The position numbers were made by a program, and so were the translations under genes. Below the pieces are notes generated by a model that saw only the letters and a list, made by a program, of their open reading frames with translations, was not told where the DNA came from and made no database searches. Of a stretch of DNA of 64,000 bases, positions 25,922-62,636 are shown piece after piece (the stretch's first letter is position 1; the number at the start of each line of letters is the position of its first letter). The stretch lies in assembly GCA_002049455.2 (NCBI GenBank), contig KV919102.1:1-64000 (forward strand), read 5' to 3'. The stretch comes from Porphyra umbilicalis (lineage: Eukaryota; Rhodophyta; Bangiophyceae; Bangiales; Bangiaceae).

Positions 25922-26142
25922 CTGCTTTGGGAGCGGGCGGTCGATGGACTGGGCTGCGTGGGCTTTTGGTTGCTGGGGATCCTGTTCATGTGGGAGGTCG
26001 GTCGTAGTAAATGAACCTGTAGGCCTTGTGCTTTCGACAGGGAGCTCACTGGCTGTGTAATAGCCTCCTCAAGTCATGCGTACGAACGCCATGGGCGAGG
26101 CGGTCCTCGACGCGCGGCGCACAAAAGGAGGTAGTATTTGCA

Positions 26143-26175
26143 GATCTCGAACAACAAGCAAACGGTTGCATCTCA
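26143..26175 (+). repeat. Left terminal inverted repeat
   Basis: 33 bp, matching the inverse of 45554-45586 at 30 positions; the three mismatches lie together in the middle. Beyond it outward, a GTAG..AT similarity hints that the repeat extends about 12 more bases. Confidence 0.8.
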
Positions 26176-26255
26176 GGTGGGGGGGGGGGGAGACGGCGTG
26201 TGCGTGCGCCACGTGGGTGGGTTTGGGGGGGGTCTGGGGGGGGTTGGGGGGGGGC
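26176..26255 (+). repeat. G-rich left subterminal DNA
   Basis: Several runs of 8 or more G separated by short spacers, capable of forming quadruplexes. A comparable G-rich array lies near the other end of the element. Confidence 0.6.
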
Positions 26256-26362
26256 TAGATTCGAATGGAATATAATACCACGTGCCTCACATCGATTTAT
26301 GTAGTTAGGCTCCATGGCATGTCCACGGGTACCCGATTCGTGTCCGACGGCAGCCTCCAGGA

Positions 26363-26453
26363 TGTCTGGTGCCTCACCATGGTCATAGCCACTGCGGCGG
26401 GCTCGGGGGTGTCTGGCGCCTCACCATGGTCATGGCCACTGCGGCGGGCTCGG
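26363..26453. repeat. 47-bp direct duplication
   Basis: Two copies of a unit beginning TGTCTGG.GCCTCACCATGG, differing at a few bases. Confidence 0.75.
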
Positions 26454-27051
26454 CTGCATGATACCAATCGACAGTGGCGCCGAAGCCTTCTCGGGTAGAG
26501 TAGCAGAGGGACAGTAGATGGGTGGGGACTGAATGCGTTCTCGGTCGGAGGGGGGTGCTGCATCCTATGAGTGCAAAGACGATGAGTCCGCGCACAGCCG
26601 GCCGCAGCAACAACCGAGCCCGCCAAAAGCGGGCAGGTCGGCCCGAACCAAGTCAAATTCGGATGCAAGCCCCCCCATTCACAGGAGTAAGCCTCTTTCT
26701 GAACCGCCACAGATGCCCATTCTGAGTTGATTGAGGGGGTTAGCTGTCAATAAAGGCCCGAAATTGACATCGCTGTACCCAGTCACCTTGGTCTTGCGCG
26801 CCTTTTTGCCCGCGCCGACGCGCCCCGCGCAGTCTTGCAGCGTTCCGCGCAATGCCGACCCCATTGACATCGCCGTCTTCCTCGTGCCAACGGCCCCGGG
26901 TACGCCGCCCCTGCGCCACGTGCACTTCCCCCCCCCCCCCCCCCGTCCTTCTTTTTATCCTCGACCCCCTGTTGCCTCCCCTCCCCGCGGTTGGGGCCTC
27001 CTCGTCGCCCTCGTGTCTTGTGCGGTCTTTGTGCCCCCCCTGGCCTGACCC

Positions 27052-30000
27052 ATGGACCGCTTTGAGGAGGCCTTGAAGGGCCTGTGCATCACTGACAATC
27101 GGTCGAAGGAGGCTATTGCCCCTCTTTTGAAGAGCTTTTTGCAGGCGGCGAAAGCGCTACAACGGGCTCTCACGCCTATTAATGGCAGCGTCCATGCGGC
27201 AGTGAGCCGAGCTACCAACCACGAGGACGAGTTGATGACGAGCATCGACTGGGTGTCGGTGTACGACCGCGTCGGGCTCTTCGATGTGGAAGACCGCCAC
27301 GTCGCCCGCTTGGTCGACGCTGCGTTGCGGCACGTTTGGCGGAAGGAGGAGTATGACTTTCTCATCGGTTCCGTTGGGGTGGAGGACAACCGTATCATCG
27401 CGGAAACTAGGCGGGCGATGCGTCGCGAGGAGGGGCGTGGGGGGAGGGCTGAGAGCACGGTTTGCACGGATGAGCCCCTGGCGAGCTCGATGATGACGAT
27501 GCCTGGCCTGCGCGCCCGCGTGGCTTTCTCCTCTGTGCGTCCCCGTGTCTGTGTGCCCACCACTGCTGCCCTTTCCGCCGTGCAGGCCGTTATCAAGGTG
27601 GTGGCAGACTCGAGCCACCCGTCCAGTCTCTGTCGTTCTCTCGGCCAGAAGGCTTTCGTTGCGTACCAGAGCTTCGTCATTGCCGAGGCTGGCCTCACGG
27701 CGGAGACGGTGGCGGGCGTGGTGGCGGCCGCACCTCTACTGGGCAGCAGCTCAACCCCCTCGGCGCTCGCCGCAGCCAGCCCCTTGGCTCCAGGTGGCTC
27801 TTCGGCGGGCGGCGCGGCCAATGTGGGCGGCTCACCCGTGACGGCGGCGTCCACGGATGAGGCCGCGGCCGCTGCCGGGGCAGCACTCTTGGGCGACAAG
27901 GACGACGAGGGCGGGGCGGGCAGGAGTGGGTCACCACAAACTCCTGCAGTAGCCCCGCCTGCGGGGGGGGACGGAGGCGCCGGCGCTGGCGGCGGGTCGG
28001 GCGCTGGCGCGGCTATGGAGGGCGGCGAGCCGGCCGGCGGCACGGGCGGCACGGGCGGCACGGCGGCGTCTTTCGACGCGGACGCAACCGCGGCAGCGGC
28101 AGCGGTCGTGGCCGTCGGGGACAGGGAGGGCAATGGCGACGGCGTCGGAGCTGGCAACGGGTCGGGCGCCGGCGTGGGCAGCGATTCGGGTGCCGGCACC
28201 GGCAGCAGGTCGGGCGTCGGCGTAGCGATGGATGGCAGTGAGCCGGCCAGCGGCACGGCCGGCACAGCGGCGGCTACTGACGCGGCCGCGGTCGCCGCCA
28301 CGGCAGCAGCAGCAGTCGTGGCCGTCGGGGACGGGGAGCGCGATGACGAGGGCGTCGGCGCTCGCAAGGGGCCGGGAACAGGCGCGAGCAACGAGTCGGG
28401 CGTCGGCACGGCGATGGTGGGCGGCCAGCAAGCGGGCGGCACGGACGCCAAGGACGCCGCAGGCGCGGCTGTGGCGTCTGCGGTACTCGACGCCTCGGCT
28501 GCGGCCGTCAAGCCGCTGGTTCTCGGCTATTTGGTGGCATATCTTCGCACTAAGCGTCTCACGACGTGGAGGTTCCCTGGAAAAGGGAGGGGGCCCGCTC
28601 CCCGAGGTACGGTCGCCAACCCCCGAGGCGCGGTCACCGTGGACAAGGGCCGATCGCTGTGGTGCCATCGAGTCAGCATGCTGGGCATAAAAACAGCCTT
28701 TGACGTACCCCAGCTTGCTAGCCGGCGTCACAAGCTATCCAATTTGCCGGACGAGGTGCTCGTGGTGGACCTCACCGCCTTCCGGACCAAGAGGATCGGC
28801 GACGTGGTGGCGGCCCTTCTCCTCCTTTGTACGTTTGAGCCAGATGCGGTGAGGATTGTGAAGGAGGTAACGGCGGGCTGCTTTGCGGCTAGGCCGACCC
28901 GCCACCCGTCCCTCGTCTTGTCGGGTTTGGAGGTCGAGCGCGTCGTGGGGGGCACGGGGACGGGCGCGGCGGCAGTGGGCACTGGTGGCGCAGCTGCGGT
29001 GGACGCGACCAACGACGATGGCAATGGCGGCGGGCCCAGCCCGCACGAGAGTGAAGCCGCTTCCGCTGACGCAGTTGCCGGGGCCGGCGGTGGTAGCGGC
29101 GGCGACGCCGGGCGGCACGGGCAAGGAGCTCCTGCTCGAAGAGACGGTACAGTTGGGGGGATGGGAGCCGCCCGTGGCGCCGGTGGCACCGGTGGCGCAG
29201 CTGGCGCCGGTGGAGCTGATGGCGCTCATGGTGCTGTTGCCACCGGTGCTGCTGCTGCCGCGGCGGGAGGCAATGGAGGCACCCCTGCTGATGGCGACGG
29301 CATCCGGGAAGGCCGCAGTGTCGCAATAGAGGCGGCCTACTTAATGCGCGCCATGCGCGAGGCCGCCAATTGTCGCGCCAAGCGCCTTGCCGCTCGCCGC
29401 GTCTCCCGAGCCAAAGCAGCCTCCCTGGCAGCAGCTGGTCGAGCACTTGTGCCTCCTCGTCGGCCCTCCAGGCGCCGACAACGCACGGCCACTGACCTCG
29501 GCGCCGACGCTGCCGCTGCCTCGGGCGCCGCTACCACCGCCGCCTCGGGCGCCGACGCTGCCGCCGCCTCGGGCGCCACTGCCGCCGCCGCCTCGGGCGC
29601 CGACGCTGCCGCCGCCTCGGGCGCCGACGCTGCGGTCGCCTCGGGCGCCGACGCTGCCGCCGCCTCGGGCGCCGCTGCCGCCGCCGGCTCTGGCGCCGAC
29701 GCTGCCGCCGCCTCCGTCCCGGCTGCCGACGCTGCCGCCGCCTCCGTCTCGGCTGCCGACGCTGCCGCCGCCGCTGCCGCGGCCGCTGCCGCCACCGCTG
29801 CCGCCGCCGCCGCTGCCGCCGCCGCCGCCGCCTCGGCAGACGCCTCGGGCGCTGCTTCTGGGGATAGTGCCGTGGCAGCGAGCAAGAAGAGGAAGAAGTC
29901 GGGCAGCGTCGGCGCCTCTGGCGCCGGCACTGGCGCCGCTGGCGGCGCAGTCGTTGGCATTGCGGCGGCGAGCAAGAAGCAGAAGACGGCGGGCAACCAG

Positions 30001-30261
30001 CCAGCGACGGGCAAACCGCCCGGGGCTGGCAAGCAGTCCACGGCGGCGCGTGCGTCGACGCTCGCCTCGACGATTGCAGCCACTGCAGCTGCCCGAGGCC
30101 TTGCCGCTATCTCCGGCGCTGCTTCTGTTCTAGCGGAGTCGGCGGCGTGTTCGGGTACGCCTGCGAGTAGTGTCGAGAAGGGGAAGGGGGGCAGCTCGAC
30201 GGCGGCATCAGGTGCCACCCCGTCTGCAAGCGACGCTTCATCGCCGAACGAGATTGTTTGA
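27052..30261 (+). CDS. Protein A: unknown transposon-encoded protein
   Basis: 1069 residues in one exon, start MDRFEEALKGLC. Two blocks are conserved in the second copy at 48.3-51.5 kb. Block 1 (about residues 1-210) is helical and charged, with SIDWVSVYDRVGLFDVED, LVDAALRHVWRKEE and RPRVCVPTTAAL. Block 2 (about 488-630) has LWCHRVSMLGIKTAFDVP, LPDEVLVVDLTAFRTKRI and ARPTRHPSLVLSGLEVERVV. Between and after them are Gly/Ala/Asp-rich linkers and an (ASGADAAA)-type repeat. Basic motifs KKRKK (~945) and KKQK (~975) look like nuclear signals. I recognise no family. It runs convergently into the helicase, with 357 bp between the stops. A role beside the helicase in transposition is inference from its repeated pairing. 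Confidence 0.75.
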   Translation: MDRFEEALKGLCITDNRSKEAIAPLLKSFLQAAKALQRALTPINGSVHAAVSRATNHEDELMTSIDWVSVYDRVGLFDVEDRHVARLVDAALRHVWRKEEYDFLIGSVGVEDNRIIAETRRAMRREEGRGGRAESTVCTDEPLASSMMTMPGLRARVAFSSVRPRVCVPTTAALSAVQAVIKVVADSSHPSSLCRSLGQKAFVAYQSFVIAEAGLTAETVAGVVAAAPLLGSSSTPSALAAASPLAPGGSSAGGAANVGGSPVTAASTDEAAAAAGAALLGDKDDEGGAGRSGSPQTPAVAPPAGGDGGAGAGGGSGAGAAMEGGEPAGGTGGTGGTAASFDADATAAAAAVVAVGDREGNGDGVGAGNGSGAGVGSDSGAGTGSRSGVGVAMDGSEPASGTAGTAAATDAAAVAATAAAAVVAVGDGERDDEGVGARKGPGTGASNESGVGTAMVGGQQAGGTDAKDAAGAAVASAVLDASAAAVKPLVLGYLVAYLRTKRLTTWRFPGKGRGPAPRGTVANPRGAVTVDKGRSLWCHRVSMLGIKTAFDVPQLASRRHKLSNLPDEVLVVDLTAFRTKRIGDVVAALLLLCTFEPDAVRIVKEVTAGCFAARPTRHPSLVLSGLEVERVVGGTGTGAAAVGTGGAAAVDATNDDGNGGGPSPHESEAASADAVAGAGGGSGGDAGRHGQGAPARRDGTVGGMGAARGAGGTGGAAGAGGADGAHGAVATGAAAAAAGGNGGTPADGDGIREGRSVAIEAAYLMRAMREAANCRAKRLAARRVSRAKAASLAAAGRALVPPRRPSRRRQRTATDLGADAAAASGAATTAASGADAAAASGATAAAASGADAAAASGADAAVASGADAAAASGAAAAAGSGADAAAASVPAADAAAASVSAADAAAAAAAAAAATAAAAAAAAAAAASADASGAASGDSAVAASKKRKKSGSVGASGAGTGAAGGAVVGIAAASKKQKTAGNQPATGKPPGAGKQSTAARASTLASTIAATAAARGLAAISGAASVLAESAACSGTPASSVEKGKGGSSTAASGATPSASDASSPNEIV

Positions 30262-30618: not shown

Positions 30619-33273
30619 TTACACAGCACGCGTAGGAAGCACACAATCAAGAAACACGTACCCCAAGTCGCGCTGCGTGCTGTAAAAGAGGCCCACCTGT
30701 ACATCAGCCTGCACCTTCTCACGGTCAAAAGAAAAAACGTGCACGCCCTCCATCGACCGCACTCTTGACAAAGCCACATAGACCATGCCACTTACAAAGC
30801 ACGGCGCCAGGTCCATCACAGCTGCATCCATGGACAAACATTGGCACCGATGCACTGTGACGGCCCACGCCAGCACCAGGGGGATCTGGAACCGGCTTGC
30901 GTACGCCCCGTCCCTCGCGACCGACTGCAGCTTCATGTCCGTTGCTGTGACCACCATCTCCACCGGGCCCCGCACGGCGTCGAAGCACACAACGGGCACC
31001 TTAGTCGCCTTGCCGTTCGAGCCATGCGTCGGGACCGACTCAAACCGCACGATCGTCCCGATGGTGCCGTTGGGCACGTCCTTGTTGCCGTCCGACAGGT
31101 TGGCACACGACGCGACGCGCGCCCCGACGCAAACCTCGAGCACCTTAGGCGCCATCAGCGCCGTGTCGAGCTGGCGCGTCACCTCCTCCTTCGTCAGCTG
31201 CGCGTTGATGGGGTAGTCGATGGCCGTGTACACCTGCCGCTGGCAGCCGTTGATCGTCTCCATCGTGGACAGGCACTGCCGGTTGTGGATCTTGACGCGC
31301 TCGCGGTGCGGGAAGATGTGCGTGACCTCCAGGTCCGTCAAGCCACCCGCCGACACACGCGACTTGTACACCTCTGCGCGCTTCTCCAGGAAGGCCGCCA
31401 AGTCGTCGGTGACGTTGCCAACGCGGAGGTGGGAGAGCATGTCGATGAACTGCTTGTCCGCCTGGCGCCAGACGTACTTGAGCTCCAGCTGGTTGTTGTG
31501 GAACAAGCGTGTCCAGAACAGCGACTTAAAGGCGTACAAGCCACGGGTGTCAAATTTGTCCTCGTCCCCACGCCGCACCGGCGGCAGCTGGAAGAAATCT
31601 CCGAAAGCCACCATCCGCCACGGCCGCTCCGGGTTGTGCTTGGCGTGGGCATGGTCGAGACAGTAGCACAGGAGCGTAAACATGCGGCTGCTCACCATCG
31701 ATACCTCGTCGACCAGCAGGACCGCCGTGTCGGACAGCCGCTTCTTGGTGGCCGTTGTCATGCCGGTGTACAGCCGCTCCGCATCCTGCTCTTCGCTGAG
31801 CGACTCGTCAAAGCAGCCGGCTGGAAGGCGCAGGTAGGCGTGCAACGTGACGCCGCCAGCCACTGCCGCCGCCACGCCTGTTGGAGCCACGACGTGAAGG
31901 CCAAATTTGAGGCCCCCGCGCGCGCTGCGGTACTCGGCGACGCACTCCCTCAGCAGGCGGGTCTTGCCCACCCCTCCGCCGCCCGTAACAAAAAGCCCGC
32001 TGTCACGCCGCAGGATACTCTTGGCCAGCCGCACCATATCATATGGCACGGCGGCGGTCATCCGCAGCTTCTTGGTCGGATGGCCCGTGGCGGCAGAGAC
32101 TGCCAACGGCAGAGGAGTGAACGCACGCGGCGGCGACGCCGTTGCAGGTGCCGCGCCGCGGCGGCGACCTAGAGAGGTAGTGCTGCTGCCAGCGCGGCGA
32201 CCGCGCGGAGTCGTGCTGCTGCTGGGAGTGCCAGCGCTCTCCTCGGCAGCCTCCAGGCTTGAAGACGAGTAAACCAAAGGCGTCACCGCCGAAACAGAGG
32301 GCCCAGCGGGAGAGGGGCAGCCCACACTGGTCGACGAGCGGGGGGCGCCCAGGGGAACGGGGACACGGGCTGGGCCGAGTCTAGAAGAGCGGCGTCCGCG
32401 GGACACCGTTGTCCCAACAGAAGTAGAAGACGGGGCACGGCGAGGAGGAGTCAACAGCGACGTGCTCGAGTCGTCATTGACCGGCGTCACCGGCTTTGAC
32501 GCGGCCCGGCCGCCGCCACGCACGAGCAACCCAGTCACGGGGTGGCGTTGAAACGCCAGAGGCAGGAGCCTGCCGTCTTCCAGGCTCCCCATCGACAGGA
32601 TGGTGCGGTTGGTGGTGGGAGCCGGCGGCAAAGCCCGCGCCGCCTTGGAGAACGCGTTGCGCTTGGCGTCGTCGTCCGACTCATCGTCCGAAAGCACGAT
32701 GACGCCGTCGTCGGTCACCGAGATGACGGCGTCCTCCCCCGCGGCCGCTCTCCCCGACGACGCCGCGGAAGAGGACGACAGCAGCCACTGCGGCACCCGA
32801 GGGGCCAGCAACCACGACTCGCAGTCGGGCGTCGACGGCATCAAGCGGGCCAGAGCACACTCCCCGTTCAGGTCAGATATGGTGTTGACGAGCTTGACCA
32901 CCATTGAAGCGTCATCCACGACGGCCAGATGACCGCCGACCCCGCGCAAAAGGGCAAACACGGAAGTACGGGGGGGGGCGTCGCCGATGCGCACGACGGC
33001 TGCCCTGCCTTCCGGGACGCACGTACGGCTCGCCCACTCAGGCAGCGCGGGCAACGGGCCCGTCGCCCAGGACGTGGCCTGACGACGATGCTCAAACGAG
33101 CAGATGAGCGCCACGTCCGAGCCCAGCCCCGTCCACGCCATCAGCAATCGCGCCATGTCAACAGGGTCCTTGGCGTCGACGACCACGCGACCCGACCGGG
33201 AGCGTAAGGCAATGAATGCCGCGGGTCGGAGCACCCCACCCCCAGCGCGCACCACTTCAACACGCTGCGCCAT
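30619..33273 (-). CDS. PIF1-type DNA helicase with novel N-terminal domain
   Basis: 884 residues, single exon, start MAQRVEVVRAGG. PIF1 helicases unwind DNA 5'-3' and act at G-quadruplexes and replication intermediates. Seen: Walker A FVTGGGGVGKTRLL (~430), Walker B LLVDEVSMVSSRM (~520), motif III GDFFQLPPV (~555), LELKYVWRQ, and C-terminal motifs AWAVTVHRCQCLSMDAAVMDL and VYVALSRVRS (~805-840). All motor motifs are intact. The first ~170 residues (VDMARLLMAWTGLGSDVALI, VKLVNTISDLNGECALARL) form a domain shared with the second copy but not part of the PIF1 core. A Ser/Arg-rich linker with an acidic VIVLSDDESDDD (SUMO-interaction-like) joins them. No HUH Rep domain, so not a Helitron. Confidence 0.9.
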   Translation of the reverse strand: MAQRVEVVRAGGGVLRPAAFIALRSRSGRVVVDAKDPVDMARLLMAWTGLGSDVALICSFEHRRQATSWATGPLPALPEWASRTCVPEGRAAVVRIGDAPPRTSVFALLRGVGGHLAVVDDASMVVKLVNTISDLNGECALARLMPSTPDCESWLLAPRVPQWLLSSSSAASSGRAAAGEDAVISVTDDGVIVLSDDESDDDAKRNAFSKAARALPPAPTTNRTILSMGSLEDGRLLPLAFQRHPVTGLLVRGGGRAASKPVTPVNDDSSTSLLTPPRRAPSSTSVGTTVSRGRRSSRLGPARVPVPLGAPRSSTSVGCPSPAGPSVSAVTPLVYSSSSLEAAEESAGTPSSSTTPRGRRAGSSTTSLGRRRGAAPATASPPRAFTPLPLAVSAATGHPTKKLRMTAAVPYDMVRLAKSILRRDSGLFVTGGGGVGKTRLLRECVAEYRSARGGLKFGLHVVAPTGVAAAVAGGVTLHAYLRLPAGCFDESLSEEQDAERLYTGMTTATKKRLSDTAVLLVDEVSMVSSRMFTLLCYCLDHAHAKHNPERPWRMVAFGDFFQLPPVRRGDEDKFDTRGLYAFKSLFWTRLFHNNQLELKYVWRQADKQFIDMLSHLRVGNVTDDLAAFLEKRAEVYKSRVSAGGLTDLEVTHIFPHRERVKIHNRQCLSTMETINGCQRQVYTAIDYPINAQLTKEEVTRQLDTALMAPKVLEVCVGARVASCANLSDGNKDVPNGTIGTIVRFESVPTHGSNGKATKVPVVCFDAVRGPVEMVVTATDMKLQSVARDGAYASRFQIPLVLAWAVTVHRCQCLSMDAAVMDLAPCFVSGMVYVALSRVRSMEGVHVFSFDREKVQADVQVGLFYSTQRDLGYVFLDCVLPTRAV

Positions 33274-35341
33274 TGCCACCAACGCAAACTGCCACGCCAC
33301 TCGACACACACAGCCACGCCCCACCCGCCCTCCCACGCACAGCCGACCACGCGTTGTCGTCGTGGCTAGGGCTCCCCCCACGATGGTACGGTGGAAAAGT
33401 GGTCCACGGATGGCACCCAACAGAGCCCTGCGTGCTCAGCGGCGTCTGTTGGGGAGCGCAAAAAGTGCCCATGCTCGTCGGGCCGGCACCGATGGGGCGC
33501 CTCGACAAGCGCCGGCGCGCACATCCACACGCTTGAAAAGGCGGGCAAGAAGCGCGCCAAGGACCAAAGCCCCCCCACATTGCCCTTCAGGAGGGGAGAG
33601 CGGACATCATATCAAAACAGTGCCGAGACGGGGGTTCCGATCCGGTGACAAAAGGGTCCTGGCAGACCACCAAAACCCCCGGTGCAAGCGACGCGAGGAA
33701 GGGTATCTCTTGACGCACCGTTTCAAAGATTTGCTCTCTGTGCGTATTTGTGCGTCCACTTCATTCGAAAATACACACTCGTATTTGTTTGCCAATCTCC
33801 TGGCCCCTCGCCGATCTTCGGCGTCTTGCACCCGTCCTGTTCATCCTCTTCCCACTGCCTGCCTGCAATCCAATCCACGAGCACATGCGGCTGCATCCTT
33901 TCCAGTACGCGCTCTCAGATGCTCATGGTGGTGTTTGTAGCTGTGTCATTCTGCCCAATACCTGCCATTTGCCAACTGGTGCTGTTTGCTTCGGGTACCC
34001 ACGCGTTTCCCCCAGTGCTCCCCCCCCCCCCCAACCCACCGGCTCGCCCCCCCTAAACGCACCACCGCTGCCGCCTTTTTCCCATTGCCCCTGTCGTGTC
34101 CTCGGCCTCTCTCCATCCCAAAAGGGTGCCAACGATGCGGATTGCACTCAGCGCAGTAGGTACTGGACAGTGCGAGCGGCCTCTGGTTATCGGTCGTGCT
34201 GCGTACCGGAGAAAGAGACCTCACATGCGCGTCGGCTGCAGCTTTCTTCGGGAATTTTTTGCTCTTCCGCGCTCTTAGGACCCTCAAAGGCGCTCCAGAG
34301 GAACTTTAGCGGGTCTACTGGGTCACGTGTCCCTTCTTTCTGGTCTGGAGGTATCAAAAAGCCCATATCCGCCATACACAATCTGCACGCCGTCTCAGTC
34401 AAGTGGACATACTGGGTATGCACGTCGTACATCAAGGACGGGCAGTGAAGGAGTGTGATTCATTTTGGAGGGCCACTGCTTCTGTGTTGCTCGTCAGTGC
34501 CCCTGCGTCGGTATGCACCTCAGGAGCACAAAACGGTAGCACACAATCGTTGGTGACACCGCGGACCCAAAAAAACTGCATGGTGGGGTGGGGGGACATA
34601 CCTTGGCCACAATGGCACACCACATTGACGCGCACAGCGATCAGGACCCAAAGCCAGACATGTAAAAACACTTTTTGGCCTCGATTCTCGCTGCGATCGA
34701 GGGGCTTTCTGAGACTGCTTTTTGCGAGACGTTTCTGGTCCGTACGCCGGCTATAGGTGTAGGGATGGGGCTGGCATGAGAAAACACCGCTAGAAACAGA
34801 CAGCGAGACCGTCAGTGGTGCGCCACTCATGCAGGCCTTCGCCGAGGCAGGCACGAAAAGGAGTGAAGAATGTCTTTCTTGACAAAACCCGCAACAGAGC
34901 CACAACCAGGACACTTTGGAGCATCATTGGTGCGCTTCTCGTCTGGAGGGTGTTTTGGTCATGTTTGGCTCGGAAGTGTCGAGCCGCACCACCTCTGGGA
35001 CACCGTAGCAGCCGGGTGACGAGTGGAAACTGAACCAACTCAACTCTTATCAAAGCGGCTTAGAATGGATGTAGAGAGTGGACGAAGTCTTGTCGAGGTG
35101 TTTTTTCTGGGAAAGACAGAACAGAATCGCTGTAGGCGAGGACCAAAAAACCAGGAAGCGCAGGCGCGTGATCCGCTGGAATGGTCAGTGTCAGTTGCCA
35201 TTACACTGCAACCAGTCCCTCTCTTGGGGGGTTTCACACATCGGCACTGATCTTGTTGTGTGACGGCCAAAAACGACCACACCAACACAGAGGGCGGGCG
35301 TGGGTCAAGCCGACCACCGCTATGACTGCCGTGGCTCCCAT
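33274..35341. other. AT-richer spacer within the transposon
   Basis: About 2 kb without a convincing gene. A minus-strand segment 34432-34187 (82 residues, MYDVHTQYVHLTETACRLCM) looks protein-like and may be an exon or a fragment of cargo. A C-run lies at 34020-34031. No tRNA or other RNA recognised. Confidence 0.4.
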
Positions 35342-37217
35342 TCACACAGTCGGGGGTGACCGGAGGTCACAAAGAAGACCGTGCGTGTTCATGACAACGC
35401 AACAGGCACCAGCCTCGTTTATCTGTAGGAATAAAACACAAGACAGACCAAAATGCATGCTGACAAGGGCATGCAGTCCGGCTGCCAGCCGGTAGCGAAC
35501 CCCGCCCAGCCCATCAGGCCGAGCACCTCCGCGGCGCCTACCCCGCGTTGGCGAAAGGGGGGGCGGGCCAGCGCCGACGGCACAGCCCGCGGCCGTTCCG
35601 TCCGCGGCCGTTCCGTCCGCGGCCGTCACCGCGGCCTCGGCTGCCGCTGCAGCCTGCCCTATCCCGCTGAGCATCTCCGCGGCGCCTACTCCGCGTTGGC
35701 GCAAGAGGGATCAGGCCAGCGCAGACGGCACCTCCCGCAGCCGCCCCGTCGGCGGCCGCAGCCGCGGCGTTTGCCACCGCTGGAGCCTTCCCCGCCCCAC
35801 CGAGCACCTCCGCGGCGCCCCCGTCATTGTTAGAAGAATGGAGGGGTCCCAGCGCCGAGGGCATACCCGCGGTAGTCCCCTCTGCGGACGTCCGCACAGC
35901 CGTGGCCTCCGCCGCATCCTCCCTCACCCCGCCAGCCGCCCTGACGGTGTCCTCCCGGTGATGGCGAAGCGGGGGGGTGGGAAGAGCCGACGGAAAGCCC
36001 GCGAACAACCCCTCCGCGGCCGCCGTCACGTCCTTGGCCAACGCCGCATCCTCCCTCACAACGCCGGCCGCCTTGACGGCGCCCCCCTGGTCTTGGCCAA
36101 AGGGGGGGTGGGCCAGAGCTGACGCCACCGCCTGCGGCCGTCCCGTCCGCCGCCGCCACCACGTCGCTGGCCGCCGCCGTGGATTTGCCAACCGCGCGGA
36201 CCCCCCCCACGGTGCCGCCGCATCCTCCCTCACAACGCTGGCCGCCTTGACGGCGCCCCCCTGGTCTTGGGCAAAGGGGGGGTGGGCCAGAGCTGACGCC
36301 ACCGCCTGCGGCCGTCCCGTCCGCCGCCGCCACCACGTCGCTGGCCGCCGCCGTGGTTTCGCCAACCAAGCGGACCCCCCCCACGGTGCCGCCGCATCCT
36401 CCCTCACAACGCTGGCCGCCTTGACGGCGCCCCCCTGGTCTTGGGCAACCGGGGGGTGGGCCAGAGCTGATGCCATTGCCCGCGGCCTTCCCGTCCGCCG
36501 CTGCCACCACGTCGCTGGCCGCTGCCGTGGGGTCGCTCACCGCGCGGACCTGCCGCACGGTGCCGCCGCATCGTCCCCCACCCCGCCGGCCGCCTTGACG
36601 GCACCCGCCCGGCGTTGACGAAACGGGGGGTCGGGCAGAGCCGACGGCATGACCGCGAACAACCCCTCCGCGGCCGCCGTCACGTCCTTGACCGACGCCG
36701 CATCCTCCCTGACCCTCCCGGCGGCCATGACGGCGCCCCCAGAGTGATACAAAAACAGAAGGGGGCAAGCGCCCTCCACGCCGCCCTCACTTGTCCCCTC
36801 CTCCGCGGCCGACACGTCCTTGGCACCCGCCGTGATCTCGTCCACCGAGCGGTCTACCCCCACGGCGCCCTTCCCGTACTCGACCAACGGGGGGGTTGCC
36901 AAGGGCGTCCCACCGGCCGGTGGCCCCTCGGCGGCGACGCTCGCAACACCTTGCTGCCCCGCGCTGCCACCCCCTCCCCACCATCTGCTGCCTCCCGTCG
37001 CGCCGCTGCACAGCACGTTGTCAAATTGGGTCACGGAGAACTTAAAATATATGCGAACCGTGAGAGGTCGTGAGAGAAATATTTTTCCATGCAGCAAACC
37101 TCGTGACACCATCCTCGCAAATGTCGCTGTGTCGATCTCTAAAAGGCTCTGTCTGAGAAGGCTTTCTGACACCCCCAGAGACCTTCTTACCCCACCCACC
37201 TGGTCACCCCTACCCAT
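35342..37217 (-). CDS. Repeat-protein gene, frame-interrupted
   Basis: Start MGRGDQVGGV at 37217 (or ATG at 37112). After a ~70-residue lead with LTVRIYFKFSVTQFDNVL, about nine imperfect repeats of ~44-58 residues follow, with consensus GGAVKAAxxVREDAA, then DVTAAAEG or DVVAAADG, then a Pro-rich turn (SALPDPPF, SSGPPPL). Two or three central units are nearly identical 174-bp DNA copies (36120-36640), and in these the reading frame that matches the consensus changes at a G-run and changes back before the next unit. The gene is therefore either misassembled at homopolymers or was amplified after a compensated shift. No family recognised. It lies inside the KDZ element and may be cargo. Confidence 0.45.
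36118..36640. repeat. 174-bp tandem repeat, three copies
   Basis: Starts of the shared GACGCCACCGCCTGCGGCCG-type segment fall at 36121, 36295 and 36469. The period is exactly 58 codons, which fits amplification within a gene. Confidence 0.85.
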
Positions 37218-38725
37218 GTGCGTACTCGTCTACTCCCAATAGCTGCGGGCACCGCCCAACCACGGACACTTGTGCTTGCCTCCTTTCCTGTCCTCTCCCA
37301 CTCCTTTCTCCTGCTGGCAGGGGGGGGGGGGCGAGGGGGGCTGCACATACATGCCGAGGGGGTCGGGGAGGATGGGGGCGCAAACGGTGTCGCTAGAGTG
37401 GGACGGCTGCTGGCATTGCCGTGCAGAGCTCTGGCAGGGTCATGGGGCAGGTCCTCCTTGCGCGATCAAACGGCACCCTTCACACCCAGTTCAAGGCAGA
37501 CTTGGCGTACACAGTATGCATTCTTGCGGGCACATGGAGACCTCTGCTCGGACGCCTCACCGTCGTAGCTTGTGTCAGCCAGACTTTGTTCAGTACCTGT
37601 TGGCATGATAGTCTGCTACCAATGGGGACCCAGGATGCGCCCCCGGTCAACCGGGCAGCCAACCAGCGGGCTGGAAAACGTCAAGCCTTGTGCTTGGGGA
37701 TAGCGGGGCGATTAATAATAATTCGAAGTGCTGGGCGGCGCCAATGCGCGCCCTCGGCATGTGTGCAGGTGACTGCCATGCTGCCCCCAGCCCCGCTCCT
37801 GGCTGCCGCCCAAGTGCACAAGTGCTGCCAACATCCCCGCTCGCTCTCCTGGCCGACCGCTCGGCCCACCCTCCTGGCGGACCGCCCCGCCCACCCTCTG
37901 GTCGACCGCCCCACCCACCCTCCTGGCCGGAAGCCCCGGCCACCCTCTGTTCGATCGCCCCGCCCACCCTCCTGCCGACCGCCCTCGTTCCTGTCGTATT
38001 CTTATCTGCATCCCCTCCATCCCACGCATTCTCTCCAGCTCGCACGGGGGCGGGGGGGAGTCACTCTACGACGGGCCGGACGACGTTTGCAGTCGCTGGA
38101 CTAGTGGTGGTGGCGATTGGGTGGGGATCCACACTGGCGCAGTGTGGATAGTGTGACGCGCGCGGTGGGTGGGTGGTGGATGGGTTGGATGAACTGACCA
38201 CGTACTTCTTTTTCGTGTTCGCTCGCCCGTCCCCCATGTATCCTTACCATGCATATGTGCGATGGCTTCCTCTTTCTTGGCTTCTGTTTCTTTGCAAACC
38301 AATGGGTGTTGCTGACATCGAAGTCGAGTAACTTGTGTCATACGCACATGCATGCGTGGTGTCCGCGAGTCGCTGACATGGTGAGCTTGCTGTTGTCCGG
38401 TGGCCTGTAGCTCTGTCAGAGTTTGCGGCTGTGTGCAGTTAGCTACATGTCTGCGTGACTCTGTAGCACACCGTGGCTTTCTTATCGATTTCGTGTCTGC
38501 TCTGCCACCCGTGCCCGCGCCGAGCAACAATAAAGCGACCGTGTCTTTCAATGCATCTTTGGCATGTATCCTCAATGCTGGCCGGTGTCACATCCTTTCC
38601 TCCGTCAGGGTCTTGCTCCACTTCTTCCCCGAGACCTCCGAGGGATCATTGCGGCGAGTCTCGCAACATATGTCTCGAAGGATGTGAACTTCTCCTTAAA
38701 GATTGGGCAAAGAGGAGTTATGTAC
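37218..38725. other. Spacer within the transposon
   Basis: No gene supported. Holds a G-run at 37321-37331 and a C-rich ~28-bp tandem repeat at about 37840-37985 built from CGCCCACCCTCCTGGCCGAC. Confidence 0.45.
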
Positions 38726-39562
38726 TCATTTTCGATCTCTCTCTGAACGCAAAGGGGTCGAGCAGCAATACGGTTCGGCCTTGTTGCAGATACCTTGGAA
38801 CCTGACACGAGATTTCATCAACGCGCTGTGTGTCGCTGCGTGGACGGCATTGACAGGCTCATCCGGCTCCCCCTCCCCCCCTGCAGCGTGCGCAGCCGCC
38901 ACGACCAAAAAAGCGTCAACGCCGCCAACACCGCCGCTTTGCCATAGCCGGGATGAGGAAGCCAAGTCAACAGACTGGATGCTGTGGGTGGCGGTTGTGA
39001 CGTCAGCATTCAGAGGTAATTTGCACCAAGTATTTACGTTTCGCTTACAATATGAGCAGTACGGACAAATACGAGAATGAATACGAAAGGCCACGCACCG
39101 CCTGTCCTCGGCCCCGTCAGCAACACAAGGAGGGGTGTCAACGTGGAACACGCAGGAGGCGCATTTACACCATGACCGCCTACCCATCAATATCAGGGCA
39201 ACAGGAGCACTTTTTCGGGCGGGGATCTGTGACGTCATGCGCCATTCAGAGAGCGTCGTGGCAGCGGCCAATCCTGAGCGGTAGGAGGTCTTACGTTGCT
39301 TGCCCCGCTTTCCCCTAACAGGGATGGAGCCCAACCATTGGATGCCCGACCATGGCCTGGAAACATGCCGTGAAAACAGTATTTCAAATTGACCATAAGT
39401 TGTTGTACTTTTATTACATTGTTTCAAATGCCTGCCACGCCGTCGCCGTCGCCGGCGAGAGCACGCGTCTTCTTGAGCGCGACCCTCTCGTGACGACGGT
39501 GCTGATTTGCCTCGGTGAGTGGCCCTGTGCGGGGGCCCTCTGGCCTCTGCGTTTGCCCCCAT
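38726..39562 (-). CDS. Cys-rich reading frame antisense to the transposase start
   Basis: 278 residues from an ATG at 39562 that overlaps the transposase ATG on the other strand (the shared CCATGG). The centre has WCKCASCVFHV, then RRCVAF, then ICPYCSYCKRNVNTWC, a Cys cluster that could bind zinc. Composition is varied and not low-complexity. No family recognised, and a chance frame cannot be excluded. If real it would be divergently transcribed with the transposase. Confidence 0.25.
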   Translation of the reverse strand: MGANAEARGPPHRATHRGKSAPSSREGRAQEDACSRRRRRRRGRHLKQCNKSTTTYGQFEILFSRHVSRPWSGIQWLGSIPVRGKRGKQRKTSYRSGLAAATTLSEWRMTSQIPARKSAPVALILMGRRSWCKCASCVFHVDTPPCVADGAEDRRCVAFRIHSRICPYCSYCKRNVNTWCKLPLNADVTTATHSIQSVDLASSSRLWQSGGVGGVDAFLVVAAAHAAGGEGEPDEPVNAVHAATHSALMKSRVRFQGICNKAEPYCCSTPLRSERDRK

Positions 39563-42500
39563 GGCGGGCCATCAAGGCCACGATTGCGATGACCACGACC
39601 CATCGTTCACTTGCCGCCGGACGCAGATGGGAGTACTGGGTGTCTTAGACCTGGTGGCATCGTCGTCCAGCGCTCCGCGGCCACTGCGCCGTCGAGTACC
39701 CGAGCTCCCTGTCCGTCGGTTTGTTCTCTCTCCCCATTCCTCCCCACCCTCCTCCCGCTCCTCATCCACGCTTGCTGGTGGGTCGCCCTCCGTTTCCTTG
39801 CCTCCCTCCTCCGTGGACGGCTCGGTTGATGGCGGTCACGTCACCGACGATCCTCTTTCCATCGACAACGACTCCCACTCGGACTGCTCGTCGGTCGACG
39901 TGGGCGAGCCCCCTGAGGCCGTTGCTCCCAGGATTGGGCGGCGCCCGAGGAGAACGGTCGGTCGGGCACGCGCCGAGTCCGAGGCGGTGCGGCAGGAGGC
40001 GCTCACCGACCTCATTTCGGCGGCGCTGCGGCGAATGCTAGGCCAACGTGCGCGGGCGGACGCGTCGGTGGGCAGCGGTATGATGGCCAAGGTGATGGGC
40101 TCGTCGGACGCTCCCTCGCGCTTCCTCTTTTGCGTAGTCGGTCCCAACGCGGTTGACTTGGCCACGATCTGGTTCTCCCCCGACGGTTTGCCTCTGTGCT
40201 CCTGCTGGGGTCACTCCCAAAACGTGGCCCTACTCTCAATGGCAGGGGACGGCAGCTCGTGCTGGCACGCCATGGCCTTTCAAGCGGCCGTCGACGGAAT
40301 GGCCGTCCACCGCGGGGAGATCATCGCGACCCTGCAGGTGCGAGACGACATGAAGCCGCACGCCATTGACGTCACAACGCACAAGGGCATGGCCGCGGCC
40401 GCTTTTGACGGCACCATCTACAGCCCGGTCGTCGCGACCAAGCGGCGCGACGTCAAGTGCGTTGCGGTCAGTTGCCGCTCCAACCCCCGACGCTGCCATC
40501 ACGCCGAGCTCGTCAAGGAGCTGGAGCGCTTGGTCGTCGCCAACGACGGGGTCTCTGGCGCGTCGGACGTGTCGTCGGACGACGAGCAGCCCGGGGAGCA
40601 GAATCACCACGATGATGAGGACGGCGACGCGGACCTGCAAGACGACGAGCTCGTCAAGATCGCCAAGGAGCGGCAAAAGCGCAACCTCGTTTCGTGCATC
40701 GAGGAGGACAAGCAGGGCCTAAAGTGGGCCCGCACCGCTGAGTGGGCGACAAACGAGCTCGCTGCCTCTCCCTTTTGGCCGGAGCCTCCCGCTGTGGGCG
40801 GCGACCCCGTCGTGGAGCAGTCCGCTTCGATGACCGTATTGCAGCGCATGGCCGAGCTGGGCTTGGTGTGGGACCCGAGCGTGGTACTGCACGAGGTGTC
40901 GTGCACGCAGTGCGGCGCCGCAAAGACAGACAACGACGAGCTGAGAAAGCAGGCTGGCAAGCTGTATTGCGATGGAAACAGCTCTGAGCCGCTATCGGTA
41001 CGTTCTCGAGTGTTGTTGCTGTTTGATCTTGCATGGCATGTTGCCTGGCTCTTGTTTGCTTGCTGTCCTCTGTCGTTTGGTTGTGTTCATATGCTCACAG
41101 ATGCTGTCCCTCCCTCGCTGTAGCTCCCTTGCTCTTTCGGCGGTGTCCTACTCTTTGGTCGTCATGAATGCAGGTGACGGTCGGCTCATGGATCTGCCCA
41201 CAGAAGCACGTGGTCGAGTATGACGGCGGCAACGACGGCCTCTTCTCCTTGCGGAAGACGGACGACTCGGGCAGCATGCTGGTGTTTTCCCGCGCCTTTT
41301 GTGACAAGCTCGTCTCCTTTGTCTACCACTCGCGGTCCTCGTACGCGGCGGCGACCTCTTTTTTGGCGTCGCTGCGGTCGTGTTTTGGCCTGCGGCGGCA
41401 AATCATTGTCACGTTGGGTCGTTGCTTTGTGGCGACGCTCAAGCCAACGGAGGACGTGTTTGTTTGTCCCACGTGCGGTGACGACCCCGCGTACGTCGTC
41501 ATCGACGGCCAGGCGCTAGGCTTCAGGGTTAAGGACGGCTTCAGCATCTCCCGTCCCGCGCTCCACCTCCCCAGCACGAACCTCAACATCGATAACTACG
41601 CGGTAATACGACGGCCAAGTATACGAGCTGCAATACGCAAAGTCCTGCGGACGGGCGACCCGCTGACCAAGACGGACGCCGAGGCGCTCCGGGACCTCCA
41701 CGAGGCGCGCTCCTCGGCGTTTCCACGAGGGCGCACGGCGGCGGCCGTGAACAACTGGCGGCTCACTCGTGACGCCGCCGTACTCTTCTTCCGCTTCCAC
41801 GAGTGGACGGCAGTGGATGATTTGGGACGTGGGCGCCCCTCCCCCGCAGTTGGAGCCGGCGACGCAAGCGTACAAGGAGGCCATGCCGCCGCCGCCGCCG
41901 CTGTCGCCCCCAATGACGAGGAGCCGCCGGTGGGCGGTCTGGGAAACGGCCCTGCTCCCGCCTCCACCTCGTTGGCGTGGGACGAGCGGGAAGGCACGTG
42001 CCACCCCATCTTCGCGACGTTCAAAGCTGGGGGCACAGAGTGGGCAACAGTGCGCCCATTTCTTTTGGCTTTGCTCGGCGACCCGGTGGTCAACCTGTTT
42101 GTGGGGCACCCGCGAGCGCCGCTGCTGGCTCTCTCCATGCACCTGATGAAGGCGGATGGCCTCGGCTGGCGGAAGAAGGCGAAGGCGGCAAACGCTGTCG
42201 GCTTTGTAGCCAACTTTTTCGCTCGTGTTGGACCTCTCCTAGACAAGGAGCCGCTGTTGCGGCAAGCCGTCGGCGCGCTGCTCCGCTTTGCCGTCGACGT
42301 CGACCAAGCTGTCGACGACGACTTCCAGGCTGCCGCTAAGAAGGCGGCTGACGGCGGCCAGACGGAGACGGCGGAGTTTTGCAAGCGGTGGCTCAACGTG
42401 TCCTCCCCGGCCGAGTACGACAAGTTCGCGGCTGAGCACCCCGCCTTCAAGGACAAGGACTACAACTCCCCGTACGTGTCGTTTGAGTTCTTCGGCTTTT

Positions 42501-43363
42501 TGAAGCGCGTGCGGCCGGCGATCTTCACGCCGAGGACGACGCCCAAGAGATCCGCCGGGCAGCAGCCGGTGCGCGGGCGGGGTCGGGTTCGTCGGGGGGC
42601 TCAGGCGGTCAAGGAGGACGCGGGTGACCGATGTGCGAAAGCTTTTCCTAAGCACTCGGAGCTGACGGCCGGCGTGTTTAACGTCGTCTGTCCCCATGTA
42701 GTCACCATGGGCTTCCGTGTAATGTTCGAGGCCGAGAGCGTCGCCGACGCGCTGTCGGTCATCTTGGAGCGCTTCCCCAAGCTCCCCAAGGTTGTGTTTT
42801 ATGACGTTGCCTGCAAGTTGGATCGCAACGGCATGCAGCGCGTGCGCACCCTCCTCTCCCACCACAAGGTGCGCTTTTGCCTCGACCGGGCGCACGCGAA
42901 GGGGCACACGTGCTCCTGCGTGTACTTCCCTGACGAGTCGCTGGCGGTGACCAGCGGGGTCTCCACCCAAGCCGCCGAGGTGCAGCATTCCGTGTCTGTC
43001 AAGTTTAGGGGGCACCTCGCGTACACGTCGCCGACCGCCTTCATGGCGCACCGCATCTACCAGCTCTCCATGATGAACCTGACGGCCTCCTACAAGATCC
43101 ATCACCCCGACGCCAAGGCAGAGAATGAGGGCGCTCGCCTCAACAGCTACTACTTCAACTACCACAACGCCAAGTGCCTCCGCCCGGCTTGCACCTGCTC
43201 AGCCAGCGCATTGGGCGCTTCGGTGGCGCCCCTTTCGGGTGTGGATGGCGGAGGCGCACCTGCGCGTGACCAAGGCGTCAAGAGCGGGGAGGGGGCAAGG
43301 ACCGATGGAGGGAGGGCATCTGACCCATCTGACCAAGACGAGGGGAGTGGGATGCGTGAGTGA
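39561..43363 (+). CDS. KDZ-superfamily transposase with SWIM zinc finger
   Basis: About 1208 residues. Exon 1 39561-40997 and exon 2 41174-43363; donor GTACGT and acceptor GCAG are phase 0 and join SSEPLS to VTVGSWICPQ. Seen: SWIM-type finger CSC...CWH at ~212-237; a second Cys/His cluster CVAVSCRSNPRRCHH at ~300-315; CTQCG/LYCDG at ~448-470; CPTCGDDPAYVVIDGQALGF at ~577-595, where the Asp of DGxxLG is a candidate first catalytic acid; FYDVACKLDRN at ~1021 as a candidate second; then HAKGHTCSC at ~1052. This order (Cys clusters, CPxCG, DG, YDxAC, GHxxxC) matches Kyakuja/Dileera/Zisupton transposases. No stop or frame break. An upstream open segment 39352-39512 ending in a GTGAGT donor-like site might be an extra 5' exon, but no in-phase acceptor was found. 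Confidence 0.8.
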
Positions 43364-44159
43364 GTCGACTCGATCGCTGCGGGGTTGTCATCGCCTGGCT
43401 CAGTTGGGTAGTTGATTGTAGGGAGTGACGACGAGGGATAAGGCAGCGGCGAGTCGATGGGGGAGGCCGACTCTGGTGTGAATACATAGTTGTGTGAGTG
43501 GACGTCTGGTGCCTTGGATGCTCAATGAAACCACTGCTTAGGCCACAAGGGTATACATCATAGGGGCTCGAGTAATGAGATACGTCCCATGCATGACAGA
43601 GGTCTACAAAGAAAAGACAAGCCACAAGGCGGCAGGAGACGAGTATATGCAGCTTTGAAGACCACAACAAGACCCGGACTGCGCGCAAAACCGAAGAGTA
43701 GGTATGCTAGGTTGGCAGAAAAAGACGCCAGCGTGCCCCACACCCCCACCCCAGGATATAGCACCACAACAGGCCGCTCTTGAACGTGGCCGCGGCTCAA
43801 CAGGGCAATGCAACTCAGATACGCACTTGCTCACTCGGTAAACGAGGGGGTAGCGCTTGGCAGGGAAGGGGACACGGTCCAGGCGGGGCGGCCGCCGTCA
43901 CCGCTGGCGGCAAAGAAGCCAGCGACACGCCGCCGCTGCGGCACCGGCGCCTACGTGCCGGGCAGGCCGAGGAGGTCGCGACCGGGCCAGGCCACAACGC
44001 GGCCTTGGCCGACGAGCCGCCGTCGGCGCGGGGGGGGTGGACGGCGACTGCAAGCTCCCCCCGTCAATGCCGTCCGACGGCGGCAGCGGCGGCGGCGGTG
44101 GTGGCCGTGTCGGACGAGTGCGGCGGCGGCCGCCACCGCCGCGGGGTACACAGAGGGAT
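43364..44159. other. Spacer before the right array
   Basis: No gene supported; composition shifts from mixed to GC-rich at about 43,850, where divergent first copies of the array may begin. Confidence 0.4.
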
Positions 44160-45150
44160 GCGGGGAGCAAGGAAGCCGTGGGGAGGCGCCTGGCTGCAGC
44201 CGCCGCCAGGCGGCCGGCCGGGTGGCCGACGCCGGACCGGTGACTGCGTGCCGCGCTGCCGGCGGCGGCGTCCGACGGGGGCGGCGCCGGCCGTCGCCGC
44301 GCCAGGTTATAAAGAGGGGGAAAGGAAGGGGGTAAGCGCCCCCGTCGGGGGCGGGGGGGCGGACGGCTGCCGCCGCCGCCAGGCGGCCGGCCGGGTGGCC
44401 GACGCCGAACCGGTGACCGCGTGCCGCGGTGCCGGCTGCGGCGTCCGACGAGGGCGGCGCCGGCCGCCGCCGCCGCCACAGGGTAAAAAGAGGCGGGGGG
44501 GGAGGGGGGAAGCGCCCCCGTCGGGGGCGGGGGGCCAGTGGCCGCCGCCACCGCCGGGCGGGCGGCCGGGCGGCCGACGCCAGACCGGTGACCGCGTGCG
44601 CGGTGCCGGCGGCGGCGTCGGACGAGGGCGGCGCCGGCCGCCGCCGCCGCCACAGGGTAAAAAGAGGCGGGGGGGGAGGGGGGAAGCGCCCCCGTCGGGG
44701 GCGGGGGGGCCAGTGGCCGCCGCCACCGCCGGGCGGGCGGCCGGGCGGCCGACGCCAGACCGGTGACCGCGTGCGTGGTGCCGGCGGCGGCGTCGGACGA
44801 GGGCGGCGCCGGCCGCCGCCGCCGCCACAGGGTAAAAAGAGGCGGGGGGGGAGGGGGGAAGCGCCCCCGTCGGGGGCGGGGGGGGCAGTGGCCGCCGCCA
44901 CCGCCGGGCGGGCGGCCGGGCGGCCGACGCCAGACCGGTGACCGCGTGCGCGGTGCCGGCGGCGGCGTCCGACGAGGGCGGCGCCGGCCGCCGCCGCGGC
45001 CACAGGGTAAAAAGAGGCGGGGGGGGAGGGGGGAAGCGCCCCCGTCGGGGGCGGGGGGGGCAGTGGCCGCCGCCACCGCCGGGCGGGCGGCCGGGCGGCC
45101 GACGCTGGGCCGGTGACCGCGTGCCCGGCGGGCCGATGCCGCTGCCCGGC
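44160..45150. repeat. 175-bp tandem array, about six copies
   Basis: The shared AAGCGCCCCCGTCGGGGG marker falls at 44334, 44510, 44684, 44859 and 45034, a 174-176-bp period. Each unit has GGTAAAAAGAGG beside a G-run and two inverted GGCGGCCGACGCC-like stretches. The inner copies are nearly identical, the leftmost one diverged. The period is not a multiple of three and every frame on both strands is open in places, so I treat the array as non-coding. Confidence 0.9.
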
Positions 45151-45553
45151 ATCCATTAGTTGGCGGCAAAGAGGATGGATTACAGGTGCGGGGTGAGAAA
45201 CAATACAGAGAGGGGAGGGGGAGCGAGAGGGATGCGCGCGCGGCGGCCGGGTGGAAGGGTGGGGCGGCCGGGGGGGGGCGGCGGCAGCGGCGGGGCAGCG
45301 CGGGCGGGGCGGCGCGGGCGGGGGTGATCAGGGCGGCGGTGGGGGAGGCCAGCGTGGGTCTCCCCCCCCCGTCAGGGCGCCGTCTGGGAGGGTAACCGTC
45401 GTTCAGATGGACACACGGTCACCCGGTCATCAAGTAGGTAAGTGCTGCTGAGGCACGTGGCACCCATCGTGGCAGCCTGCATGAGGCGGCTGCCGCCGGT
45501 TGCCGGCGGCAGCCGACGGCGCCGCGAGGAGCGCGGAGCGCCCTCGGCTGAAG
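45151..45553. other. Right subterminal DNA of the transposon
   Basis: G-rich, no gene. A C-run at 45362-45370. Confidence 0.4.
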
Positions 45554-45586
45554 TGAGATGCAAAAATTTGCTTGTTGTTCGAGATC
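45554..45586 (-). repeat. Right terminal inverted repeat
   Basis: 33 bp, inverse of the left copy at 30 positions. Followed after 14 bases by the candidate target duplication GCACAAAAG. Confidence 0.8.
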
Positions 45587-45609
45587 CTGGGATCCTACAT
45601 GCACAAAAG

Positions 45610-46236: not shown

Positions 46237-46259
46237 CTCACTTTCTTTGCTGATGGTGG

Positions 46260-62585: not shown

Positions 62586-62636
<51 letters not shown>

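Follow-up and report, generated by a model that had tools for sequence, protein, structure and literature searches.

Giant KDZ elements and helicase-bearing transposons

Giant DNA transposons of the KDZ superfamily have been described from algae, with families of up to 30.3 kb in Ectocarpus and an active 31.7-kb element in Chlamydomonas reinhardtii (PMC12477816). Like the Porphyra umbilicalis element described here, which we call E1, they exceed 10 kb, carry accessory genes and contain nested transposon insertions (PMC12477816). The portions of that report available to us mention neither a PIF1 helicase nor the partner gene that we call protein A, whereas in our data the helicase recurs across copies and across groups of elements. 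No giant KDZ element with PIF1 was found in the literature searched, as far as its accessible text extends.

E1 resembles Zisupton/Dileera and the Cryptococcus elements KDZ1-3 in having a KDZ domain, terminal inverted repeats and 8-bp duplications, those of KDZ2 and KDZ3 measuring 4-8 bp (PMC12730594, PMC12810828), and the target duplication of Zisupton is 8 bp (PMC12730594). As described, KDZ1-3 are about 9-11 kb long; their inverted repeats span 139-241 bp, they have a CxC1 zinc domain, and fungal relatives can carry TET/JBP. E1 differs from KDZ1-3 in its SWIM-like motif, its shorter imperfect repeats and its two extra genes.

Like Helitrons (RepHel), E1 encodes a PIF1-type helicase. In Helitrons this helicase is fused to Rep (HUH), whereas in E1 it is a separate protein beside a KDZ transposase. 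Helitrons are not known to have inverted repeats or target duplications; in contrast, both are present in E1 and in three further copies, E2 to E4. Polinton/Maverick elements carry genes for a protein-primed DNA polymerase B and a retroviral-type integrase. Of the 35 listed E1 ORFs, the 14 scanned gave no match to a Pfam family for an HUH/Rep nuclease, polymerase B or such an integrase.

We consider it probable that positions 26128-45601 of the window, the 64,000-nucleotide stretch analysed, constitute a 19.5-kb KDZ-type DNA transposon that carries PIF1 and protein A genes, is predicted to move by cut-and-paste, and has a helicase likely to aid copying or repair.

Boundaries and gene content of E1

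E1 (19,474 bp) has inverted ends and is flanked by an exact 8-bp target-site duplication, CACAAAAG, at 26120..26127 and 45602..45609. The preliminary description had given a 9-bp flanking repeat and a right end at 45600. A direct repeat is indeed present, and the longer string GCACAAAAG occurs at 26119 and 45601, but after comparison with E3 and E4 we dropped the 9-bp duplication in favor of 8 bp. The G preceding the right copy of CACAAAAG is E1's own final base, and the element therefore ends at 45601.

Matching inverted ends had also been claimed, at a length of 33 bp; the match is confirmed and the length is revised. The terminal inverted repeats occupy 26128..26175 (+, GAGGTAG...GCATCTCA) and 45554..45601 (-, ending in CTACATG), and over these 48 bp we counted 37 matches by eye. 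From the outside inward, 7 of 15 positions agree, then all 20 of a core (26143-26162 on the left), then 0 of 3 and finally 10 of 10. Even when two mismatches are allowed, the inverted 20-mer at 26143 (+) and 45567 (-) has no further match in the 83.8-Mb assembly. No empty E1 site was found in the assembly, where the 1-kb left flank matches only itself; the right flank is a dispersed repeat from about 45747.

The transposase is encoded on the plus strand by exon 1 (ORF B, 39519..40997, start codon putative) and exon 2 (41174..43363), separated by a predicted 176-bp GT-AG intron (40998..41173) whose GT and AG appear by eye at corresponding positions in E3 and E4. A SWIM-like CxC-x-CxH zinc motif lies in the first ORF (39519-41123), and its in-frame join to the KDZ ORF through the predicted intron gives 1222 aa. 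Pfam PF18758 identifies the KDZ domain on ORF 41168-43363 (E=8e-08; score 32.7 bits, cut-off 26.6) and matches 31 of 33 aligned members at E<=0.01; the tree or alignment drew on 32 of the 51 proteins found. Residues D113, D546 and E604 of this ORF form a candidate DDE triad. The SWIM-like motif is present in E1 and E4, its pattern is unmatched in E3's piece, and there is no Pfam SWIM match. The earlier assignment of a KDZ-like transposase is upheld by the PF18758 match; what was called its SWIM finger is the SWIM-like motif joined through the predicted intron.

The helicase ORF (30619..33420, minus strand, 933 aa, start codon putative) had been assigned to the PIF1 type, in agreement with its match to Pfam PF05970 (E=8.4e-18) and its intact motifs GGGGVGKT, DEVSMV, GDFFQLPPV and ALSRVR. 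A Pif1 chain in the PDB matches it at E=4.9e-45, and the PDB entry for Helraiser matches it weakly. Searching phage records with this PIF1 by tblastn returned 251 matches, every one below 60% identity and none covering 80%, and viral contigs scanned with PIF1 and the KDZ transposase yielded no relative. In the stretch that separates PIF1 from the transposase, a tblastx search for another conserved gene gave short, weak matches only.

Protein A (27052..30261, plus strand) was reported as a 1069-residue protein of no known family, and at thresholds up to E=1 neither Pfam for the protein nor the PDB for its profile gives a match. Conserved blocks at residues 1-212 and 489-630 are separated by Ala/Gly-rich repeats, and a Lys/Arg-rich stretch can be seen by eye towards the C-terminus. 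An AlphaFold model built from nine sequences has a mean pLDDT of 37.

Beyond its genes, E1 contains G-rich and palindromic DNA near its ends. A G12 tract lies at 26179..26190 (+), and runs of 17-19 G occur at a similar distance from the left end in E2-E4. At 26208..26216 (+) is GCCACGTGG, with the palindromic CCACGTGG; all four elements, and a further left end on C6, have it 80-85 bp in from the left terminus. Near the right end is a tandem array of G-rich 175-bp units (5.3 copies, 44203..45124, +). A left G12-19 tract, the GCCACGTGG palindrome and a right-hand G-rich tandem array are common to E1-E4. E1 also holds an internal C-rich array (174 bp x 3.2, 36042..36602) and a younger nested DNA transposon (CACAGC...GCTGTG; 1,822 bp, 37009..38830) with a 2-bp TG duplication, a copy of which, 99.8% identical, lies at C342:73459-75280. 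This nested transposon is a passenger outside the E1 system. No Rfam family reaches its gathering score in the 64-kb window.

Related copies and linkage of the genes

The same genome holds three more copies that were resolved over their full length: E2, E3 (contig C24) and E4 (C172). E2 (C342:47849-68423, 20,575 bp) has the same orientation as E1 and occupies 47849..64000 of the window, ending 4.4 kb past it; its left duplication, CAGGCGCG, is at 47841..47848, and the right copy, CAGGCGCA, lies beyond the window. All four elements have terminal inverted repeats with ends of the form GAGG[TC]AG...CTACA[TC]G, and the 8-bp duplication is exact in E1, E3 and E4 and matches at 7 of 8 bases in E2. 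Relatives of protein A, PIF1 and the KDZ transposase, 31-70% identical between copies, lie inside the ends of all four, which argues that the helicase and protein A belong to the element. The preliminary description had looked to inverted pairs of the terminal 20-mer enclosing the same three genes; the exact pair occurs once, and the other three pairs have diverged ends with 8-bp duplications.

The gene set is partly broken outside E1, with A or PIF1 disrupted in E2, E3 and E4. Both are decayed in E2, where the frames of the protein A relative (48273..50218, +) and the PIF1 relative (52131..55150, +) are broken, the Walker A motif reads GKM, and PIF1 is inverted relative to E1, E3 and E4.

Terminal repeats lacking the genes had been named in advance as contrary evidence. 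Such left ends occur, and taken strictly they count against the proposal: none of the three genes is present in the 9.5 kb fetched at C6:140037 or within 4 kb at C24:140323. The left-end motif gave 149 + 32 raw matches (11 + 44 with the reversed-pattern control), and by eye at least 43 distinct places were recognized among the matches listed, including E3, E4 and C6:140037. Ten others were chosen and read; at these other sampled left ends there was no transposase among the KDZ loci listed (61 of 271 candidates scored), and the C11 left end has no right end within 2 kb. These gene-less left ends look like non-autonomous relatives, as is usual for a DNA transposon.

Genome-wide, with 49 of 5709 PIF1 candidates and 61 of 271 KDZ candidates scored, a KDZ transposase is present no more than 15 kb away at 32 of the 48 PIF1 loci identified, in several gene orders, where about one would be expected by chance. 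PIF1 is that close to 31 of 37 near-full-length KDZ loci of groups I and II and near 3 of 11 partial ones, two of which (C155:143749 and C20:373039) share their PIF1 with another KDZ locus. In group III (at most 31% identity) it was seen at 0 of 12 loci, with 49 of 5709 PIF1 candidates and 61 of 271 KDZ candidates scored. Group II loci resemble E1 in having a KDZ transposase, which shares 33-50% identity with that of E1, and a nearby PIF1, and many of them also have a relative of the SWIM exon. Where their PIF1 is within 15 kb (29 loci), it lies downstream and on the same strand in 26; five public relatives in the group II comparison (38-39% identity) have an Ulp1 protease domain. At C356, a group II locus, PIF1 has an open frame and helicase motifs, and a search of 14 kb there gave no protein A. 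One weak candidate pair of ends in the C356 pieces examined was rejected. The lengths of the longest contigs also coincide, at 14406 for A P0075 and PIF1 P0009 and at 15578 for PIF1 P0018 and KDZ P0023, which may point to the same linkage elsewhere.

This conserved linkage across copies supports the earlier proposal that a helicase/protein A module may act in E1's mobility or replication. Alternatively, protein A and PIF1 could be captured cargo with no role in transposition, as giant KDZ elements are described with accessory genes of unknown role (available text of PMC12477816), the genes are broken in E2-E4, and the KDZ locus C104 has neither. We regard this as unlikely, given the proximity of PIF1 to most group I and II loci, substitutions biased to third positions, and the open PIF1 frame with helicase motifs at C356.

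A helicase-assisted model for transposition

An enzyme that unwinds DNA is thus likely carried along by these transposons themselves when they move. Enzymes of the PIF1 family unwind DNA in the 5'-3' direction; they also resolve G-quadruplexes and support repair synthesis over long tracts. In the model, the spliced 1222-aa transposase, with a predicted RNase H-like DDE core, would bind the ends and cut the element out. PIF1 would clear the G-rich subterminal DNA, drive gap-repair synthesis of about 20 kb that restores the donor copy, or both. Protein A, in the simplest view, would be an end-binding or adaptor protein, which is the weakest step.

We tentatively suggest that PIF1, protein A and the G-rich subterminal arrays could work as a module for replication and repair that is built into the element, and that red-algal KDZ elements, as DDE transposons, could depend on their own PIF1 for a 20-kb element to be re-copied at the donor site at each jump. 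Such dependence would join to cut-and-paste a helicase-assisted lifestyle so far attributed to Helitrons, with the helicase kept across two diverged KDZ groups. That the helicase instead copies the element, by strand displacement before or during transposition in a DDE + PIF1 copy-paste route, seems to us improbable: the Helitron motor is also a PIF1-family helicase, with Helraiser as a weak match, and G-rich subterminal DNA occurs at both ends on the same strand, but the ends and 8-bp duplication are of the cut-and-paste type and the 14 E1 ORFs scanned, of 35 listed, contain no Rep or polymerase family. A PIF1-plus-A element sitting by coincidence inside an ordinary KDZ element, for which the nested transposon and the inverted PIF1 of E2 might speak, seems to us very unlikely: E1, E3 and E4 have the gene set in the same order, and each occupies a site of its own with its own duplication.

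Giant cut-and-paste transposons must repair a gap of their own length and handle structured DNA. If the helicase-assisted model is true, a transposon family that repeatedly keeps a PIF1 next to its DDE-type transposase would directly explain the persistence of giant DNA transposons. Its G-rich ends offer a defined substrate for testing the role of the helicase. These elements add to the KDZ superfamily a helicase-bearing group, together with a protein family, A, in which no known domain was found.

Boundaries and copies of the giant KDZ element

Reading its ends jointly with those of three other copies places the giant KDZ-type transposon (E1) at 26128-45601, a span of 19,474 bp. The window covers positions 1-64000 of C342, a contig 79,853 bp long. 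The left terminus opens GAGGTAG, the right closes CTACATG, and the inverted repeats are imperfect, with 37 matches over 48 bp by a count made by eye. CACAAAAG flanks the element on each side. The preliminary description had claimed a 9-bp flanking repeat, of which eight bases stand and the ninth is E1's own terminal G, so that the observation is correct except for one duplication base. The inverted pair of 20-mers it reported is present at 26143 and 45567, and no other was found in the 83.8-Mb assembly of 665 contigs at up to two mismatches.

A 1,822-bp DNA transposon with CACAGC...GCTGTG ends and a 2-bp duplication is nested in E1 at 37009-38830. It is 99.8% identical to C342:73459-75280, on the contig that carries E1, and also matches 639 bp of contig C24 (407362-408000), up to the edge of the stretch read; to judge from sequence, it appears to have been recently active. 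To the right of E1, 45747-46830 is a dispersed repeat (at least 107 matches, 40 of 233 candidates scored) that leads into a tandem array of ~47/94 bp. Likely host genes, recognized by Pfam, encode a protein kinase (131-2503 of the window), a PAP2 family protein (10478-12151) and a CAF1 ribonuclease (19057-20820).

Three further full-length copies were located by tblastn of four E1 ORFs, followed by inspection of ends. E2 (C342:47849-68423, 20,575 bp, duplication CAGGCGCG/CAGGCGCA) starts within the window, 2.2 kb past E1 and in the same orientation. E3 lies at C24:382402-402449 (20,048 bp, duplication GATTTCTC twice) and E4 on the minus strand at C172:28101-47220 (19,120 bp, duplication CTCCCGCA twice). 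The terminal letters differ among all four, so the copies did not arise by recent duplication of a single insertion. E1, E3 and E4 share the gene order A (+), PIF1 (-), transposase (+), where A is the 1069-residue protein of no known family and PIF1 the helicase gene; the exception is E2, with PIF1 on the + strand.

Among the four copies, all three genes are open in E1 only. In E2, A and PIF1 are broken, the Walker A motif reads GKM, and the match to the SWIM exon (B, the upstream transposase exon) is confined to residues 377-494. E3 has A split across frames and a stop crossed in both PIF1 and the SWIM exon, and E4 has an open A and a PIF1 split across frames. In the compared parts of K (the transposase ORF with the KDZ domain), PIF1 and A, E1 and E4 differ mainly at third codon positions. 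Pairwise identity among the copies is 54-70% for the PIF1 helicase domain, 53-69% for K, 38-57% for B and 31-60% for blocks of A; E2 is the most distant copy for PIF1, K and B, and the picture for A is mixed. The helicase had 19 protein relatives, two of them from Pyropia yezoensis, which points to a bangiophyte red alga as the probable host.

G-rich ends and left ends without the genes

In each of E1-E4, and at a further left end (C6:140037), 11-19 consecutive G stand 49-55 bp in from the left terminus and GCCACGTGG stands 80-85 bp in. Within the 64-kb window GCCACGTGG occurs at the E1 and E2 left ends only, and two by chance would not be unusual; its telling feature is constant position rather than rarity. 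Close to the right end, all four elements have a G-rich tandem array (175 bp x 5.3 in E1, 189 x 2.5 in E2, 174 x 8.4 in E3 and 178 x 4.4 in E4, where other periods fit as well). No array longer than 250 bp with a period of 170-190 was found in the 92.6 kb examined outside the elements, where poly-G runs are common (31 of at least 12 G). Blastn of E1 gave no match between the E1 and E3 arrays. Tandem units of 173-189 bp, close to the nucleosome repeat length, recur in right subterminal and internal arrays of the four copies.

Genome-wide, G10-N5-30-GCCACGTGG gave 149 + 32 raw, overlapping matches versus 11 + 44 in a reversed control. Ten places were chosen for reading among the matches listed: a GAGG[TC]A start lies 79-83 bp upstream in six and at 103 bp in one more, and three lack it, one of these bearing E4-like terminal letters. 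At C24:140323, similarity to the E4 left end (89%) stops after 324 bp, and no gene of the element lies within 4 kb. Further left ends resembling those of E1, E3 or E4, with no element genes seen nearby, occur at C6:140037 (minus strand), C11:404900, C207:137420-137570 and other places, and some are closely alike. Most simply, such gene-less left ends are non-autonomous relatives.

PIF1 beside KDZ transposases across the genome

Whole-genome searches gave at least 60 KDZ loci (69 matches merged) and at least 48 PIF1 loci (49 matches merged). A module of helicase and protein A had been proposed to be part of the element's mobility or replication, and for the helicase this interpretation is supported and widened by linkage. 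Among the matches listed, 32 of 48 PIF1 loci have a KDZ locus no more than 15 kb away; such surroundings make up 2.4% of the genome, and chance would give about one. The binomial P of ~2e-40 overstates the linkage, because the copies are related.

We classed KDZ loci by transposase identity to E1, taking a locus as near-full-length when its match spans 560 or more of the 731 residues. PIF1 accompanies 4/5 near-full-length loci in group I (at least 57% identity) and 27/32 in group II (33-50%). In group III (at most 31%) it is found at 0/11 near-full-length loci and 0/1 partial, with 49 of 5709 PIF1 candidates scored. Among the 11 partial loci assigned to group I or II, three have it, and two of these three share PIF1 with another locus. 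At 26 of the 29 group II loci having a PIF1, it lies on the same strand, 3.9-7.3 kb downstream; the gene order is therefore unlike that of group I. The PIF1 near the group II locus on contig C356 is an open helicase frame, and element ends sought there were not found, so that what is established for group II is a helicase close to the elements rather than one within their ends. Counting against the linkage is a group I KDZ ORF, 57% identical, at C104:129400-131517, which has no A, PIF1, SWIM exon or recognizable ends in the 24 kb examined; it is perhaps a remnant, or has been domesticated. Two pairs of KDZ loci on different contigs (C295:88126 and C303:85569; C154:127137 and C155:143749) have near-identical search values and perhaps represent allelic or duplicated contigs. 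Across this genome PIF1 repeatedly turns up next to KDZ transposases, and E1 is not an isolated case.

Known elements and a proposed mechanism

According to PMC12477816, giant KDZ elements reach 30.3 kb in Ectocarpus, an active one of 31.7 kb is described from Chlamydomonas, and red algae have giant EnSpm elements bearing accessory genes. Such genes, mostly of unknown function in the giant families, are common to the Ectocarpus and Chlamydomonas elements and to E1-E4. Other sources describe Cryptococcus KDZ1-3, which measure ~9-11 kb and have duplications of 8 bp or 4-8 bp (PMC12810828), an 8-bp Zisupton duplication and TET/JBP genes in fungal elements (PMC12730594), and Zisupton and Kyakuja in Chlamydomonas relatives (PMC8226300). 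A review of giant transposons mentions neither PIF1 nor KDZ (PMC6431247). The literature searched, which was partly accessible and had most subscription papers outside its reach, yielded no example of a PIF1 helicase in a KDZ element; where texts named both PIF1 and Zisupton, the words stood in unrelated places of the portions seen.

Given its ends, 8-bp duplications and DDE-like core, the element would move by cut-and-paste through the KDZ transposase. Protein A is most simply a putative adaptor or end-binding protein. On the basis of the activities of PIF1 enzymes, together with the conserved G-rich ends, we infer that PIF1 may help in copying or repairing a long element rich in G-tracts.
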